A program made the translations under genes and the position numbers. The notes below the pieces were generated by a model. The model ran no database searches, was not told the origin of the DNA, and was given only the letters and a program-made list of their open reading frames with translations. From Rikenellaceae bacterium (GTDB lineage: Bacteria; Bacteroidota; Bacteroidia; Bacteroidales; Rikenellaceae), in the NCBI GenBank assembly GCA_031256675.1, contig JAIRQC010000071.1:1-41903 (forward strand): 41,903 nt of DNA. Direction: 5' to 3'. Below, one piece after another: positions 10,408 through 39,371 of the stretch (position 1 is the stretch's first letter; each line of letters begins with the position of its first letter).

Positions 10408-11658
10408 ATGGACATATTCGACAGGATCAAACGCAATGCCGGCGGCCCGATCGGCATGTACCAGAAGCAGAGCCACGGCTACTTCTCCTTTCCGAAACTG
10501 GTGGGCGAGATCGGCCCGCGCATGGAGTTCCGCGGTCGCGAAGTGCTCAACTGGAGCCTGAACAACTATCTCGGACTGGCCAACCACCCCGAAGTGCGCA
10601 AGGCCGACGCCGAGGCCGCCGCAAAGTACGGCATGGCCTCGCCAATGGGGGCGCGCATGATGAGCGGCCAGACCGTATATCACGAGGAGCTGGAGCGTCG
10701 ACTGGCCGCGTTCGTCGGCAAGGAGGACGCTTTCCTGCTCAACTTCGGCTATCAGGGGATGATCTCGATCATCGACTCGCTGCTCTCGCGCAATGACGTG
10801 GTTGTCTACGACGCCGAGGCCCACGCCTGCATCATCGACGGGTTGCGGCTCCACACCGGCAAACGGTTCGTCTTCGCCCACAACGACGAGGCGAGTTTCC
10901 GCAAGCAGATGGAGCACGCCGCGAAGGTGGTTGCCGAGACCAAAGGGGGCATACTGGTCATCACCGAGGGGGTCTTCGGCATGAAGGGCGACCTGGGGAT
11001 GCTCGACAAAATAGTCGCCGCCAAAAAAGAGTTCGACTTCCGCCTGCTGGTCGACGACGCCCACGGCTTCGGCACGATGGGGCCCGGCGGCAAGGGCACG
11101 ACGCACCATTTCGGGGTGACGGAGGGGGTGGACGTGCTGTTCAACACCTTTGCCAAGTCGATGGCCGGTATCGGGGCGTTTGTCGCCTCGCATAAGTATA
11201 TTATTGATTTTCTGCGCTATAACATGCGTTCGCAGACCTACGCCAAGTCGTTGCCGATGCCGATGGTGATGGGGGCGATGAAGCGTCTGGAGTTGATCGA
11301 GGCCCATCCGGAGTTCCAGCAGAAGTTGTGGGAGATCACGCGCGCCTTGCAGGGCGGCTTCCGCGAGCGCGGCTTCAACATCGGCGCTACCGCCTCGCCA
11401 GTAACGCCGGTTTACATGAAGGGCGGGCTGGAGGAGGCCACCAACCTTGTGGTCGACCTGCGCGAGAACCACAACCTGTTCTGTTCGGTGGTGGTTTATC
11501 CGGTCATCCCGAAGGGCGAGATCATTCTGCGCATCATCCCCACGGCCGTCCACACGCTGGATGACGTCAATTACACGCTCGGTTGTTTCGACGCGGTGCG
11601 CGGCAGGCTCGAAAGCGGCGAATATCAAAAACCAATCCCCGATATGGGAGACCGGTAA
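10408..11658 (+). CDS. Alpha-oxoamine synthase, serine palmitoyltransferase-like (PLP)
   Basis: A 416-residue PLP enzyme that condenses an amino acid with an acyl-CoA or acyl-ACP thioester and releases CO2. Fold-type I features are visible: WSLNNYLGL (about 50-58), a His/Asp pair in DAEAHACIIDG near 137-147, LLVDDAHGFG (about 214-223), and the PLP lysine K250 in NTFAKSMAG. Relatives are 8-amino-7-oxononanoate synthase, glycine C-acetyltransferase, serine palmitoyltransferase and cysteate C-acyltransferase. In the Bacteroidota the last two make sphingolipid and sulfonolipid bases. BioF is less likely because the only biotin gene in the window (bioD) lies 5 kb away in a separate unit. The precise substrate cannot be read from sequence. 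Confidence 0.75.
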   Translation: MDIFDRIKRNAGGPIGMYQKQSHGYFSFPKLVGEIGPRMEFRGREVLNWSLNNYLGLANHPEVRKADAEAAAKYGMASPMGARMMSGQTVYHEELERRLAAFVGKEDAFLLNFGYQGMISIIDSLLSRNDVVVYDAEAHACIIDGLRLHTGKRFVFAHNDEASFRKQMEHAAKVVAETKGGILVITEGVFGMKGDLGMLDKIVAAKKEFDFRLLVDDAHGFGTMGPGGKGTTHHFGVTEGVDVLFNTFAKSMAGIGAFVASHKYIIDFLRYNMRSQTYAKSLPMPMVMGAMKRLELIEAHPEFQQKLWEITRALQGGFRERGFNIGATASPVTPVYMKGGLEEATNLVVDLRENHNLFCSVVVYPVIPKGEIILRIIPTAVHTLDDVNYTLGCFDAVRGRLESGEYQKPIPDMGDR

Positions 11659-11693
11659 GTTCTATCGGCAAATAAAGCCGCCTCTGTTTTGAA

Positions 11694-11741
11694 CTGCACC
11701 CCAAAAGTATGCGTATGTGCGTCGCAACTTTTGGGGTGCAG
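11694..11741 (+). terminator. Long perfect hairpin after the alpha-oxoamine synthase gene
   Basis: Two 15-bp perfectly complementary arms, CTGCACCCCAAAAGT (11694-11708) and ACTTTTGGGGTGCAG (11727-11741), with an 18-nt loop. It lies 36 nt after the stop codon. There is no long T-tract on the plus strand, so it may act as a transcript end protector or bidirectional terminator. Confidence 0.55.
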
Positions 11742-11865
11742 TGCGTTTTGGTGGCGGCTTGTTTTATGGGCATTGACAGCTGGTTGCATCCGGCGCATGG
11801 CCGCCACATAAAGCAGCAGGCGAGGGATAGGGACAACTGCTTGCGGACATGCGCGAGGTTGCAGG

Positions 11866-11894
11866 CTTTCGGCCTCGTTTTGCGAGGCCGAAAG
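11866..11894. repeat. REP-like hairpin with GCGAGGCCGAAAG core
   Basis: Arms CTTTCGGCCTCG (11866-11877) and CGAGGCCGAAAG (11883-11894) are perfect over 12 bp with a TTTTG loop. The core recurs near 2208, 2985, 12827 and 37893, each time beyond the 3' end of a gene. Confidence 0.6.
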
Positions 11895-11948
11895 GCTCCT
11901 TGTTGCTGCATGTGAGTGCAACGAGCGAAGCAATCCGGTCGAGGCTCC

Positions 11949-12181
11949 GTTGTCGCAAGGGTGGATCTGTAAGCTCGAAACAATCGCTTGGCGGGGTGCG
12001 AGAGGGTGGTTTCGGTTGTCGCAAGGGTGGATCTGTAAGCTCGAAACAATACCGAGAGGTTTTTGTATATCGGGGCCGCCGTTGTCGCAAGGGTGGATCT
12101 GTAAGCTCGAAACAATAAGATGCCGGTGAAGCTGCTCGGCGCGTCGTTGTCGCAAGGGTGGATCTGTAAGCTCGAAACAAT
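11949..12181. CRISPR. CRISPR array, 4 repeats and 3 spacers, no cas gene in window
   Basis: Four identical 36-nt repeats at 11949-11984, 12015-12050, 12081-12116 and 12146-12181. Each starts GTTGTCGCAAGGGTGG and ends CTCGAAACAAT. The three spacers are 30, 30 and 29 nt (11985-12014, 12051-12080, 12117-12145) and unrelated to one another. A 36-nt repeat with GTTGT..ACAAT ends and 30-nt spacers is typical of type II, and also seen in type VI-B. I found no cas gene and no antirepeat (tracrRNA-like) segment in the window. The right flank (12182-12210) is AT-rich and could be a leader; the orientation is therefore unsettled. Confidence 0.88.
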
Positions 12182-12280
12182 CCGAGTCTTTTAATATAAG
12201 AAAGAATTGTATCGGCGAATAATGCCGATGTTTCGAAGGTTTGGTGTCTTCTCCCGACTTTGGGACTACTGCAATAAAGA

Positions 12281-12546
12281 GGCTGTTTCAAAAGCCTGAT
12301 TTTCCGTCGTCGCGTTTCGTCATTGCGAGGGCAGGGGCAAACTCGGAATAATCAGGAGATATTCGCCTCACAGGGTTACCTGCGCTATGCCTGATTTACG
12401 CTGTCGCGCCTCGGCCATTTCGAACAAACTCGACGGCCCTTGGCCTGGCTCTGTTGCTTCGCCTGACAGCCCTCGCCGACGGAGAGTGATTTACGCATGG
12501 CAAACCCGCCCTCGCAATGACGCGAGGGCGGACTTTTTAAGCAGCC
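12281..12546. mobile_element. MITE-like element with imperfect terminal inverted repeats
   Basis: The ends are GGCTGTTTCAAAAGCCTG (12281-12298) and the reverse complement of GACTTTTTAAGCAGCC (12531-12546), matching at about 14 of 18 positions. A GGCTGTTTCAAAA terminus is common among insertion-sequence inverted repeats. Inside lies a second perfect pair, CGTCATTGCGAGGGC (12318-12332) and GCCCTCGCAATGACG (12508-12522). The right end also forms a terminator-like hairpin CCGCCCTCG/CGAGGGCGG followed by T5. There is no open frame for a transposase in its 266 bp, and no clear target-site duplication. Confidence 0.5.
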
Positions 12547-12891: not shown

Positions 12892-13440
12892 TTACGCCCC
12901 TGCCGGCCGTGTCGATACGCGGTCGAAATAGGGGCTCTTGCCGGTGCAGCTCAGGGGGATGGCCAGCGCGGTGTGGCAGCCGTTCATCAGGCCGGTCTTG
13001 CGCGCCACGAGCCCTGCGGAGAACATCACCCGCGAGTCTATCCTGTGGTCGGCGGCCACGGCGCAGGCCGACCCAACGGCGATGCCCAGGTCGGTAAGGT
13101 TGAAGCCGCACGGGAATGCCGGATGAGACCCTCGCTCCTCGCAGGTCGGGAAGCCGCACATGCCGCAGTTCATTCCGATGGCCGCCGCCCGCGTGCCGAC
13201 GAGCACAACGGCCTCGCTCGCGAGAATGTTCTCCGCGTCGCGATGAAAAAACATGTAGCCCAACTCCTCGGCGTAACGGTGCATCTGTTCGCCCAGCCGC
13301 CGCAGCTCGTCGCCCGTGACGGTTACGAGTTCGAGATTGTCAATGCCCTTGCCCTTGGGGGCCGTCCGCGCCGCCGCCATCATAGCCCGCGCCACAGCCT
13401 CCACAAATTCCGTCCGTGTGTTGTTTTCGGTGAGTATCAT
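12892..13440 (-). CDS. DUF2148 ferredoxin-domain protein
   Basis: A 182-residue protein of the DUF2148 family. Five cysteines stand out: NCGMCGFPTC (C92, C95, C100), then FPCGF (C111) and GSACAV (C126), a spacing that suggests an iron-sulfur cluster. No signal peptide, so cytoplasmic. Function is not established. The ATG at 13440 is chosen because conserved sequence starts there (MILTENNTRTEFVEAVARAM); the frame runs further upstream only as an Arg-rich shadow of the neighbouring gene. It starts 8 nt after the NfnB-like gene ends, so it is the last gene of that operon, and a redox role linked to it is plausible. Confidence 0.85.
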   Translation of the reverse strand: MILTENNTRTEFVEAVARAMMAAARTAPKGKGIDNLELVTVTGDELRRLGEQMHRYAEELGYMFFHRDAENILASEAVVLVGTRAAAIGMNCGMCGFPTCEERGSHPAFPCGFNLTDLGIAVGSACAVAADHRIDSRVMFSAGLVARKTGLMNGCHTALAIPLSCTGKSPYFDRVSTRPAGA

Positions 13441-13448
13441 GGCCTTAG

Positions 13449-14828
13449 TTATTTGGTAGAGAGATATTCGTCTATCGCCTTTGCTGCTGTGCGTCCGGCG
13501 CCCATGGCGAGGATGACGGTGGCGGCGCCGGTGACGGCGTCGCCGCCGGCGAAGACCCCTGGACGCGATGTGGCCCCGCTTTCGGAGGCTACGACGCCGC
13601 CCCAGCGTTGCGTGGCGAGCCCCTCGGTTGTCGAGGCGATCAACGGATTGGGCGAGGTGCCGAGGGCCATCACCACCGCCTCGCATTCGATCTCGAACTC
13701 CGACCCGGCCACCTCCACCGGCGAACGCCGCCCCGAAGCGTCAGGCTCGCCAAGCTCCATGCGCACGCAGCGTATGGCCCGCACCCAGCCGCGTTCGTCG
13801 CCGAGAATGGCCACAGGGTTGGTCAGCATCCGGAACTCGATCCCCTCCTCGCGGGCGTGATGCACCTCCTCCGCGCGCGCCGGAAGCTCCGCTTCCGAAC
13901 GGCGGTAGACAATTAACGCCTCTGCCCCGAGCCTGCGCGCCGTGCGGACGGCGTCCATCGCCACATTGCCCCCGCCGACCACCACGACACGCCGCCCGAC
14001 GTGTACCGGCGTGTCGTAACGTTCGTCGCAGGCGCGCATCAGGTTGCTGCGGGTCAGGAACTCGTTGGCCGAGATAACGCCGTTGAGGTTCTCGCCTGCT
14101 ATGCCCATGAATTTCGGCAATCCGGCCCCGGAGGCTATGAACACCGCCTCGAAATGCTCGTCGTTCATCAGCGAGTCGACGGTAACGGTGCGCCCGACGA
14201 TCGTATTAGTCTCTATCACAACCCCCAGCCGCCGCAGGCTGTCGATCTCCGCCGCCACGATCCGCTGTTTGGGCAGACGAAATTCGGGTATCCCGTATTC
14301 CAGCACCCCGCCCGGCTTGTGCAACGCCTCGAAGATCGTCACGCTGTAACCCATCTTCGCCAGGTCGCCCGCACAGGCCAGCCCCGCCGGGCCGCTGCCG
14401 ACGATGGCCACCTTACGACCGGCGGTCTGTTGGGCCACGCTTTTGTCGCCGTTCTCGATGTTCCAGTCGCCCACGAAACGTTCCAGTTTGCCGATGGCCA
14501 CCGGTTCGCCCTTTATGCCGAGGATGCATGCCCCCTCGCACTGCGTCTCCTGCGGACAGACGCGCCCGCACACCGACGGCAGCGAGCTGTCGCGCAAGAT
14601 GGTACCGGCTGCCGCCCGAAGATCGCCCTCGAGCAGCTTACCGATAAATTCGGGGATCGCTATCGACACAGGGCATGCCGCCACGCAGCGCGGCTTGCGG
14701 CAGTCGAGGCAGCGCGAGGCCTCCCTCTGCGCCTCCTCGACGCTGTAACCGTAACAAACCTCCTCGAAATTGGCCGCCCTCGCCGCAGGTTCCTGTTCTC
14801 GCGCAGGCACTCTCGCTATTTTGTTCAT
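13449..14828 (-). CDS. nfnB: NfnB/GltD-like NADPH-dependent flavoprotein
   Basis: A 459-residue iron-sulfur flavoprotein of the glutamate synthase small-subunit family. The N-terminal domain has two cysteine clusters, C40/C43/C48/C52 and C87/C91/C97/C101, for two [4Fe-4S] centres. Then come an FAD-binding Rossmann motif VAIVGSGPAGLACAGDLA (about 144) and an NAD(P)H-binding one, VVVVGGGNVAMDAVRTA (about 283). It shares ATGA with the end of the NfnA-like gene. That pairing is typical of NfnAB, the electron-bifurcating NADH-dependent ferredoxin:NADP oxidoreductase. The alternative reading is a stand-alone glutamate synthase small chain, but no large subunit is present here. Sulfide dehydrogenase SudAB is built the same way. 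Confidence 0.8.
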   Translation of the reverse strand: MNKIARVPAREQEPAARAANFEEVCYGYSVEEAQREASRCLDCRKPRCVAACPVSIAIPEFIGKLLEGDLRAAAGTILRDSSLPSVCGRVCPQETQCEGACILGIKGEPVAIGKLERFVGDWNIENGDKSVAQQTAGRKVAIVGSGPAGLACAGDLAKMGYSVTIFEALHKPGGVLEYGIPEFRLPKQRIVAAEIDSLRRLGVVIETNTIVGRTVTVDSLMNDEHFEAVFIASGAGLPKFMGIAGENLNGVISANEFLTRSNLMRACDERYDTPVHVGRRVVVVGGGNVAMDAVRTARRLGAEALIVYRRSEAELPARAEEVHHAREEGIEFRMLTNPVAILGDERGWVRAIRCVRMELGEPDASGRRSPVEVAGSEFEIECEAVVMALGTSPNPLIASTTEGLATQRWGGVVASESGATSRPGVFAGGDAVTGAATVILAMGAGRTAAKAIDEYLSTK

Positions 14829-15695: not shown

Positions 15696-16790
15696 TTACT
15701 TAACGTTGCTCACTACCCGCAATTCGCGCAGGGGCTTTGCAGGGTCGTTGAGTATGATGGTCACTGTGCCCGCGGTACGACCGTTTGCGGTGTCATTCGT
15801 AGACAGCATTACCTTGAATGTTATCTCTTTGCCTGCCGCTATCTGTGTTTCTGCTTTAAGTGAAGTGGACGCCTTGCCGCCGCACTGCACATCCCGCACT
15901 GTCAGAGGACTTTTGCCCTCGTTGCTAAGCGTAAACTCCTTGACAAGGGTTTTGCCCGCCGCCGCCTCGCCGAAATGGTGGAACAGCGACGGTAGTTTGG
16001 CGCGCGGGGCAGCGTCCGCTGCAATCCCGCCGAAAGCGTCCACCCCCACAGCGGCGGTCATAATGGGATTTTCAACCTTTATACCGTTGAGCCACAGATA
16101 TATATCGTCCGACATGCGTCCCCATGCCGGCCCTCCTGAAAGATCGTAGGTGACGGTGATCTCACCCCGCGTGCCGGGCGCCAACTGTTGCGGCGCGGTG
16201 ATACTGAGCTGATCGAGAGCACGTGCCGTGGTTATACGTAAAGTAACGCTTTTGTTGGAAGTGTTTACATAGCCGACTGTCTTCGACTTGGCCCTGCCCT
16301 GACCTATAAAATCGAAGTCGAGCCACAGCCCCGTAAGGCGCACCCCTGCTGTCAGCTCCACAGGGTAATCGTCGGCCACGGTTCGCGGGCGCGGGATTAC
16401 GGCGCCTTTGAGGGTCAGCCTGTTATAATTCGTGCCATTGCCGCTCCACACCTCTATCGCGCGAAGGAATGCGCCGGGGCGGTTGGTCGGGTCGTAGGTT
16501 ATGGCGATCGTCCCGCGCTCGCCGGGCTTCACGGGGGCTGTGGAGTATTCGGGCTTCGTGCAGCCGCACTCGACCTCCACGCGCTCAATGACCACAGGAT
16601 TGCGCCCCTTGTTGGTGAAGCCGAAACGGTGCGTCACCGTGCCGTCCTGCTCGCGCACCGTGCCGAAATCCCACTGCTGCTCGTCAAAAACCAGCGTCGA
16701 AGAGGGGTTGCCCTGCGCCGCAATGTCTGTCGCAACGCCTGTCGCAAAGGCTGCGCAGCATAGCGCAACCATAAATATCGATCTTTTCAT
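15696..16790 (-). CDS. Secreted DUF1573-domain protein
   Basis: A 364-residue exported protein with a signal peptide (MKRSIFMVALCCAAFATG, cleavage probably near residue 25 at IAAQ). Two DUF1573 immunoglobulin-like modules are visible: about 35-130, with FDFGTVREQDGTVTHRFGFTN-like sequence and VECGCTKPEY, and about 270-364, with GEAAAGKTLVKEFTLSNEG and VQCGG. Function is unknown; such modules occur in periplasmic or surface proteins of the phylum. The start at 16790 is preferred over one six codons earlier because it gives a clean signal peptide. It ends 19 nt before the nfnA-like gene and may be co-transcribed with it, although a common function is not evident. Confidence 0.85.
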   Translation of the reverse strand: MKRSIFMVALCCAAFATGVATDIAAQGNPSSTLVFDEQQWDFGTVREQDGTVTHRFGFTNKGRNPVVIERVEVECGCTKPEYSTAPVKPGERGTIAITYDPTNRPGAFLRAIEVWSGNGTNYNRLTLKGAVIPRPRTVADDYPVELTAGVRLTGLWLDFDFIGQGRAKSKTVGYVNTSNKSVTLRITTARALDQLSITAPQQLAPGTRGEITVTYDLSGGPAWGRMSDDIYLWLNGIKVENPIMTAAVGVDAFGGIAADAAPRAKLPSLFHHFGEAAAGKTLVKEFTLSNEGKSPLTVRDVQCGGKASTSLKAETQIAAGKEITFKVMLSTNDTANGRTAGTVTIILNDPAKPLRELRVVSNVK

Positions 16791-35419: not shown

Positions 35420-36555
35420 GGATTCTGCTGATACATAACGATTACGCCCGCTTCGGTGGCGAAGAGGTGGTGGTCGCCCTTCAACGGCGTTTGCTGGAGG
35501 AGGCGGGCTGCGAGGTGGCCGTAATGCGTCGCAGCAGCGCGGAATTGCAGGGGTGGCGCGGGCAGCTGCGCGGCCTTTTCTCTGCGTTTTACAGCCGCAG
35601 TGCGGTGCGCGAAGTGCGGCGGACGGTGCGCGACTTCCGCCCCGATGCGGCGATCGTGCACAACCTGTTCCCGCTGATCTCGCCCGCCGTGCTGCCCGTG
35701 TTGAGGCGCGCGGGGGTGCGGGTGGCGATGACCGTGCACAACTTCCGGCTGGTCTGTCCCAACGGCCTGCTTTTCAACCGCGGACGGATATGCGAACGGT
35801 GCGCTTCGGGATGGCGCGAGTTTAACTGTCTGTTGCACAATTGTTGCGGCTCGCCTTACAAGAGCCTCGGCTATGCGCTGCACAGCCTCTGGGCGCGCGC
35901 GAGTGGCTGTTATGTCCGCAATGTAGAGGTTTTTATGGCCCTGTCGGAGTTTCAGCGCGACAAATTAGCCGAGGCGGGATTGCCGCGCGGGAAAATCGTC
36001 GTCGTGCCCAACTGTCTGGACGTGAACTCAATGCCCTTGCCGTCGGCGAACGTTGCGCGGGATTATGTCGGCTTTGTGGGGCGGCTAAGTCGCGAAAAGG
36101 GGGTGGACGTGCTTTTCGAGGCGGTGCGTCGGCTGCCGCACATCCGCTTCAGGGTTGCCGGGGCCGGTGACGCGCCCGACGGCAAGCCGGAGAATGTGGA
36201 ACTGTGCGGCTTTCTCGACCGTGGCCAGTTGGCCGATTTCTATTCGGGGGCCAGTATGATCGCGGTCACCAGTATTTGCTATGAAACTTTCTGTCTGACT
36301 TTAATCGAAGCGATGTACTACGGTGCCCCGACCGTCGTGCCGCAAATCGGGGCCATGCCGGAGGTCGTAGGGCGTGGCGGGGTGTTCTACCGCGCGGGCG
36401 ATGCGGCGGAGTTGGCGGCGAGGATCGAAACCTTGTGGCGCGACGGCGCTTTACGCGCGCAGGTTGCCAAAGAGGGGCGCAGGCGGATCTTGGAGCATTA
36501 CACAGGGCAGCAGTATGTGGAACGTATTTTGCATGCTGTCGATGTGAATAAATAG
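35416..36555 (+). CDS. GT4-family glycosyltransferase
   Basis: A 379-residue GT-B glycosyltransferase. RILLIHNDYARFGGEEVVV opens the acceptor domain. A cysteine-rich insert CERCASGWREFNCLLHNCC (about 129-147) follows MTVHNFRLVCPNGLLF, a pattern typical of one GT4 subgroup and possibly a metal site. The donor domain has YVGFVGRLSREKGVDVL and the EX7E segment ICYETFCLTLIEAMY. The last 37 nt of the gene are the first copy of a 117-bp tandem repeat that continues downstream. Confidence 0.9.
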   Translation: MRILLIHNDYARFGGEEVVVALQRRLLEEAGCEVAVMRRSSAELQGWRGQLRGLFSAFYSRSAVREVRRTVRDFRPDAAIVHNLFPLISPAVLPVLRRAGVRVAMTVHNFRLVCPNGLLFNRGRICERCASGWREFNCLLHNCCGSPYKSLGYALHSLWARASGCYVRNVEVFMALSEFQRDKLAEAGLPRGKIVVVPNCLDVNSMPLPSANVARDYVGFVGRLSREKGVDVLFEAVRRLPHIRFRVAGAGDAPDGKPENVELCGFLDRGQLADFYSGASMIAVTSICYETFCLTLIEAMYYGAPTVVPQIGAMPEVVGRGGVFYRAGDAAELAARIETLWRDGALRAQVAKEGRRRILEHYTGQQYVERILHAVDVNK

Positions 36556-36840
36556 ATAGTATGTGTGCATGTAAAGTATTGTTGATTAATATTTTCTATT
36601 TTGTATGCGCAGGCTGCCAGCAGTCACTGCCGGCAGGAATGTATTTTGAATGCAGTCGATGCGAACAAATAGATGAGATATATACCTGTAAAGTATTGTT
36701 TGTTAATATTTTCTATTTTATATGCGCAGGCTGCCAGCGGCCACTGCCGGCAGGAATGTATTTTGAATGCAGTCAAATGAATCAGATATATGTTTATAAA
36801 ATATTGTTAATAAAAGTCTTCTGCTTTATAAAAGCTTGAT
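36519..36840. repeat. 117-bp tandem repeat that includes the 3' end of the last GT4 gene
   Basis: Copies of GGAAYGTATTTTG begin at 36519 (inside the GT4 gene), 36636 and about 36753. TGTAAAGTATTG begins at 36570 and 36687 and is decayed near 36795, so the first period is 117 bp and the next about 108. The units at 36570 and 36687 differ at about 5 of their first 86 positions. Each full unit carries a CTGCCGGCAG palindrome. An in-frame 92-codon stretch (36561-36839) stays open because both periods are multiples of three, but it has no sign of being a protein. Confidence 0.75.
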
Positions 36841-38790: not shown

Positions 38791-39371
38791 GTTGAGTTGC
38801 CAAATATCATGCAGGGCGATATGAGGTTGAGCGCAGTTAATAAAATACATATACTATAATCCCCATTTCTAATATATTTTATGTGGATTATAAATGTCGT
38901 GCGAAGTGAAGCAAAATAAGAGCGCAGTTTGAATGTATATTTGTTAAGATCTTTATATTTAGTTAATTGTTGCTGCTATATGAATTAAAAATTGAAATAT
39001 GCAATATCATGCCGAATGAAGCAAAATATAGTGCAGCCTGAATATTTGTTGTTTATACTCTTTATTTTTTAATTAATTATCACTGTTTATATAAATTAAA
39101 AATTGAAATATACAATGTCATGCCGAATGAAGCAAAATATAGTGCAGTCTGAATATTTGTTGTTTATACTCTTTATTTTTAATTAATTATTTCTATTTAT
39201 ATAAATTAAAAGTTGAAATATGAATATCATTATAGCGAAAGGGAGCAAGTATAATAAGATAGGAATATTTATTGTTATATTTCTTGTTTTTAGTAAATTA
39301 TCGCCATTAATATAAATCAAAGGTTGAAATTATTGTATTATGTTGAGCAAAACAAAATAATATAGCGAAAC
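38791..39371. repeat. 111-bp AT-rich tandem repeat, about five copies
   Basis: Marker (A/G)TTGAAATAT begins at 38991, 39102, 39212 and 39323, and a decayed copy (GTTGAGTTGCC) at 38791. The unit from 38991 and that from 39102 are about 95% identical over 110-111 bp, while the outer copies are much more diverged. The best conserved core of each is CATGCCGAATGAAGCAAAAT then TAGTGCAG. The block is about 75% AT, carries no open frame, and fills most of the 896-bp gap between cysE and the next gene. Confidence 0.8.

Follow-up and report, generated by a model that had tools for sequence, protein, structure and literature searches.

Probable origin of an orphan CRISPR-like array in a Rikenellaceae genome by off-target integration of a type II Cas1-Cas2

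How did four identical repeats and three spacers come to lie by themselves in an intergenic stretch of a Bacteroidota chromosome? The source genome (G000) is a metagenome-assembled genome (MAG) of 2.38 Mb in 140 contigs, 81.7% complete, and the window that was analysed is the whole of contig C51 (41,903 nucleotides). The array lies inside a 1.2-kb intergenic stretch, and its parts and neighbours are arranged as follows.

10408-11658, + strand: left neighbour gene, class I/II aminotransferase
11659..11948, no strand: left flank, presumed leader side, ending GAGGCTCC, then the GTTGT of repeat 1
11949..11984, + strand: repeat 1, 36 nt, first duplicated copy, presumed leader side
11985..12014, + strand: spacer S1, 30 nt, with a match on the genome's own contig C79
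12015..12050, + strand: repeat 2
12051..12080, + strand: spacer S2, 30 nt, with a match on own contig C82
12081..12116, + strand: repeat 3
12117..12145, + strand: spacer S3, 29 nt, with a match on own contig C79
12146..12181, + strand: repeat 4, the last copy, presumed leader-distal end
12182..12240, no strand: right flank, AT-richer, beginning CCGAGTCTTTTAATATAAG, with CCGAGTC directly after repeat 4
12892-13686, - strand: right neighbour gene, DUF2148 protein

The 36-nt repeat, GTTGTCGCAAGGGTGGATCTGTAAGCTCGAAACAAT, occurs in four identical copies with start-to-start distances of 66, 66 and 65, leaving spacers of 30, 30 and 29 nt. The original prediction had described the array in this way; the coordinates confirmed it, and dinucleotide-shuffled sequence gave 0 matches to the array pattern. 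We would place the leader on the left side, because in the arrays of relatives the degenerate last repeat stands at the 3' end. The fold of the repeat RNA was no more stable than those of shuffled sequences. The intergenic DNA of this contig carries other repetitive features. Part of the left flank (about 11914-11938) belongs to a dispersed intergenic element with another copy on contig C2, and a dispersed intergenic element at 12374-12456 of the window has several partial copies both here and in G001, a genome of the same genus. An imperfect palindrome at 11670-11765, whose 39-nt arms carry AACTGCACCCCAAAAGT, may be a terminator or what is left of an insertion-sequence end. AT-rich intergenic tandem repeats, with units of 117 bp and 111 bp, were seen at 36519-36774 and 38950-39230.

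No cas gene was found beside the array or among the scanned genes of the window, in agreement with the earlier statement that cas1, cas2 and effector genes are missing there. In the assembled genome of this 82%-complete MAG, we failed to detect cas1 or a full cas9, and the single HNH_4 match was an ORF of 230 aa. A Cas12k profile had no match in the relatives searched. A complementary antirepeat, which had been suggested as a check, was absent from the window at ≤5 mismatches per 20 nt and stood at chance level in the assembled, incomplete genome, where the two strands together gave three matches at 3 mismatches and the reversed control gave two. The one Cas9-like piece detected is an N-terminal fragment at C82:21830-22280 (PADLOC Cas9, E=2e-19); it has an in-frame stop, is cut by the contig end and adjoins apparently degraded mobilisation genes. 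Just upstream of it lies TTATTGTGATTTGCTTCAAAATTGT, resembling a different type II repeat known from relatives, and this fragment may represent a decaying second type II locus.

The repeat itself proved to be private to its site. At ≤3 mismatches it was found in its own genome only and in 0 of the 267 other genomes of the family (268 in total), and two exact degenerate-pattern scans of 84,980 species turned up no array like it. The one true repeat pair that these scans returned, in Desulfobacterales, is unrelated to the orphan repeat. Within the family genomes and the species scans, the sequence is thus not that of any CRISPR-Cas system.

The spacers could be traced to the chromosome of the bacterium. 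S2 is identical (30/30) to C82:9479-9508 (-), inside a DUF6850 gene, and S3 (29/29) to C79:16727-16755 (+), inside an SppA-like peptidase S49 gene; S1 agrees at 29/30 positions with C79:11261-11290 (+), inside an NAD-dependent epimerase gene, and its single difference from the gene is synonymous, in a Gly codon (GGC/GGT) (gene assignments by Pfam). S2 and S3 were found by a DNA search of the array region against the own genome, S1 by direct comparison. As background, when 29-mers were drawn at random from the retrieved 1.63 Mb of the genome, only 0.65% recurred exactly elsewhere in it. The source genes are ordinary, unlinked to the array and located on contigs without the repeat. Phages and plasmids, against which the original prediction had suggested matching the spacers, gave no match: blastn of the array stretch against phages and plasmids returned nothing, and neither the exact 20-nt 3' ends of S1-S3 nor a 27-nt piece of the repeat occurred in IMG/VR. 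Self-targeting spacers are usually toxic when an active effector is present, as summarised in PMC6990116.

We scanned 1.63 Mb of the 2.38-Mb genome for stretches of ≥27 nt that are repeated exactly at a spacing of 56-79 nt, and besides one microsatellite and N runs obtained only three loci: the C51 array and the following two.

C32:11949-12049: two identical 36-bp copies of GTTGTAGATATTGGTTTAATTTGAACAACATCCAAG enclosing one 29-nt insert; left flank GGAGGCCT, right flank GGAAATC
C86, contig end: end of a canonical type II array, 36-nt repeat GTTGTGGTTTGATGTAGAAAGGGGATATAAGACAAC with a 29-nt spacer

The 36-mer on C32 is another private repeat, different from that of C51, and its insert is identical (29/29) to C22:10050-10078, inside a Porin_O_P gene (Pfam). 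We regard this unit as a second candidate neo-CRISPR. All four spacers of the orphan units, S1-S3 and the C32 insert, are therefore self-matching; if the + strand is transcribed, S2 and S3 are antisense to their target mRNAs and S1 and the C32 insert are sense. The flanks of the four self protospacers revealed no PAM consensus, in a sample as small as n=4. Two of these protospacers (C79:11261-11290 and 16727-16755) lie less than 5.5 kb apart, which may mark a hot spot of sampling.

The C86 repeat is the type II repeat of the family, its first 18 nt being identical to repeats downstream of cas1 and cas9 in relatives. Since the contig ends inside this canonical array, the cas genes of the system are probably in an assembly gap; cas1 and cas2 are absent from the assembly, and in the same-genus relative G001 the order is cas9-cas1-cas2-array, with Cas1_II and Cas2_II assigned by PADLOC. 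The array of G001 has 36-nt repeats with periods of 65/66 bp, the same as the C51 array. The canonical C86 spacer had no match in the retrieved own genome (1.63 Mb). An exact 20-mer of it occurs in three related viral contigs, but the overall agreement is 23/29 and this was not counted as a phage match. All three repeats, those of C51, C32 and C86, are 36 nt long with GTTGT at position 1 and CAA at 33-35, and the sites have nothing but GTTGT and CAA in common, with no shared PAM or leader motif detected. Hence the orphan site resembles the ends of the canonical repeat, though this is suggestive only because about 53 GTTGT-N28-CAA sites exist in 1.63 Mb. Inside these ends, orphan and canonical repeats agree at 4 of 26 positions.

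Taken as a whole, we consider it probable that the orphan array is a naturally formed neo-CRISPR, produced by off-target integration of the host's type II Cas1-Cas2. This reading is favoured because the repeat is private, all spacers are of self origin and an independent unit on C32 carries another unique 36-mer. Off-target integration is in itself a known process. In type II systems, Cas1-Cas2 makes its first attack at the leader-repeat junction, and the position of the second is fixed by a ruler; purified type II-A Cas1-Cas2 performs low-level integration at G-preferring non-CRISPR sites that resemble the leader-repeat junction (PMC6895254). Non-canonical, off-target integration in vivo is credited to Nivala (2018) where that study is cited in PMC11788318 and PMC9456107. 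In the present genome, Cas1-Cas2 would have captured a 29-30-bp piece of the own chromosome and placed it in a non-CRISPR site resembling the ends of the normal repeat (GTTGT...CAA, 36 bp in all), and gap repair would have duplicated the 36-bp target to give two 'repeats'. Two more insertions at the same site would then have led to the present four repeats and three spacers, and a separate single-spacer event may have founded the C32 unit. The exact duplication of canonical length around spacer-length inserts, a trait of neo-CRISPR loci, is present at both sites (on C51, 36 bp in four copies around 29-30 nt; likewise on C32). The loci that Nivala, Shipman and Church (2018) reportedly described likewise hold a spacer-sized insert at a non-CRISPR site with a repeat-length target duplicated, a repeat unrelated to the canonical one apart from the end motifs, and no cas genes at the site. 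An empty pre-integration site was not found among relatives, in which only the coding flanks, and not the intergenic ones, are conserved.

What became of the array after its formation is suggested by the repeat. The first 20 nt of a type II repeat pair with the tracrRNA, and over this stretch the orphan and canonical repeats are identical at GTTGT and two positions only. Because the tracrRNA-pairing half differs nearly everywhere, the orphan transcripts are probably unable to pair with the host tracrRNA, and the spacers were probably never loaded into Cas9. If so, the tolerated self-targeting would be explained, the self-matching spacers being harmless and unselected. Without loading there would be no selection for or against a spacer, and the array may therefore record the raw sampling of Cas1-Cas2. 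The wider claim, that type II-driven birth of arrays took place naturally twice in one genome, with C51 as a stable hot spot of three successive insertions and an unselected, entirely chromosomal record of Cas1-Cas2 sampling, seems to us slightly better than an even bet.

Other origins have to be weighed against this one. A genuine second type II array, whose own cas9-cas1-cas2 or tracrRNA was lost from the assembly or the genome and which collected self spacers after the death of its effector, is unlikely in our judgement; nor is the remnant of a deleted locus that was proposed before the best fit. The MAG is only 82% complete, the C82 end does carry the N-terminal part of a Cas9, interrupted by an in-frame stop, and the GTTGT/ACAAT ends and 30-nt spacers are type II-like. 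However, the repeat has no relative in the 268 family genomes or the species collection, no antirepeat rises above chance in the own genome, and the stretch preceding the C82 fragment is similar to another type II repeat, one that relatives carry. Such a lost system would need separate accounts of why the repeat is private, why all spacers are self and how the C32 unit arose; the C32 unit, with its other private 36-mer and self insert, it leaves unexplained. The original prediction had also suggested service in trans by a system elsewhere in the genome, and C86 does carry the end of a type II array whose repeat is equally long and likewise begins with GTTGT. Its repeat differs from the orphan repeat nonetheless, as does that of C32, and no second array with the orphan repeat was found in the own genome. 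The limited likeness in the tracrRNA-pairing first 20 nt, and the fact that functional loading would cut three chromosomal sites, make service by the canonical type II system highly improbable.

The array might instead be a regulatory mini-array, in which self guides under selection silence their targets by antisense pairing or through a non-cutting Cas9; the scaRNA of Francisella is the comparison case. Every spacer matches an own gene with no or one difference, and two of them would be antisense. But S1 and the C32 insert are sense, the targets are unrelated and matched inside coding sequence, not at gene starts, and the array occurs in no relative, so that we give this reading little credence, only a shade more than service in trans. 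Two further possibilities, a simple tandem repeat and an artefact of assembly, we regard as negligible. The few units, their identity and the fragmented MAG would fit, whereas the segments between the repeats are mutually unrelated and trace back to three places, on two contigs other than this one, and C32 has a unit of like architecture but different sequence. The original prediction had named presence of the units unchanged in distant species as one sign of a tandem repeat; the repeat is in no other genome scanned.

Off-target integration by the host's Cas1-Cas2 thus remains the reading that we prefer, and it can be set beside known cases. Natural cases described by Nivala and co-authors are reportedly from Yersinia pestis and Sulfolobus islandicus, both with type I systems. 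The present case is different from these: it is of type II and comes from a Bacteroidales-like MAG, with one array that has expanded to three spacers, and it involves two independent sites and four spacers that are all chromosomal. To our knowledge, no type II, multi-spacer, all-self natural neo-CRISPR has been known before. The origin of new CRISPR arrays has largely been inferred from overexpression experiments. Two independent off-target integrations in a natural genome, one of them expanded, would offer a rare natural view of how new arrays can be born and would make array genesis testable by strain comparison. They would also show spacer choice without selection, with four of four spacers being self; in the CRISPR array survey of Stern (2010), quoted in PMC6990116, such spacers accounted for 0.4% of the total. 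Moreover, they would serve as a warning for databases, where some entries regarded as 'orphan arrays with self-targeting spacers' may have arisen as by-products of integration and be neither regulators nor leftovers of lost systems. Ectopic spacer acquisition in Streptococcus arrays, as described in PMC7999890 and PMC5338259, is similar in that type II integration takes place away from the leader-proximal repeat. There, however, the insertion occurs inside an existing array, while here it would found a new one.

In its geometry the orphan array is like the canonical type II (II-C-like) arrays of the family in G001, G036 and G011, which have a 36-nt repeat starting with GTTGT, 29-30-nt spacers and a 65/66-bp period. 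It is unlike them in its unrelated repeat interior, its own-chromosome spacers and the lack of an adjacent cas9-cas1-cas2; the canonical repeats end in ACAAC and the orphan repeat in ACAAT. The earlier classification therefore stands as to an orphan CRISPR-like array of type II geometry, and its other option, type VI-B, was not supported. Arrays of type VI-B (Cas13b) do share 36-nt repeats, GTTGT/ACAAC ends and spacers of about 30 nt. However, a Cas13b homologue was found neither in the own genome, an 82%-complete MAG, nor in 36 family genomes by one Cas13b-like query from the same order, and the interior of the orphan repeat differs from that of the one VI-B-like repeat, beside the Cas13b-like protein of G055:C90. 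This order-level relative carries a reverse-transcriptase-Cas1 fusion (756 aa) together with the Cas13b-like protein (1171 aa) and a CRISPR array. Finally, GenBank MT838156.1, a 5.6-kb 'Bacteriophage sp.', shares pieces with the canonical array of G001 and is perhaps a mislabelled array-bearing contig.
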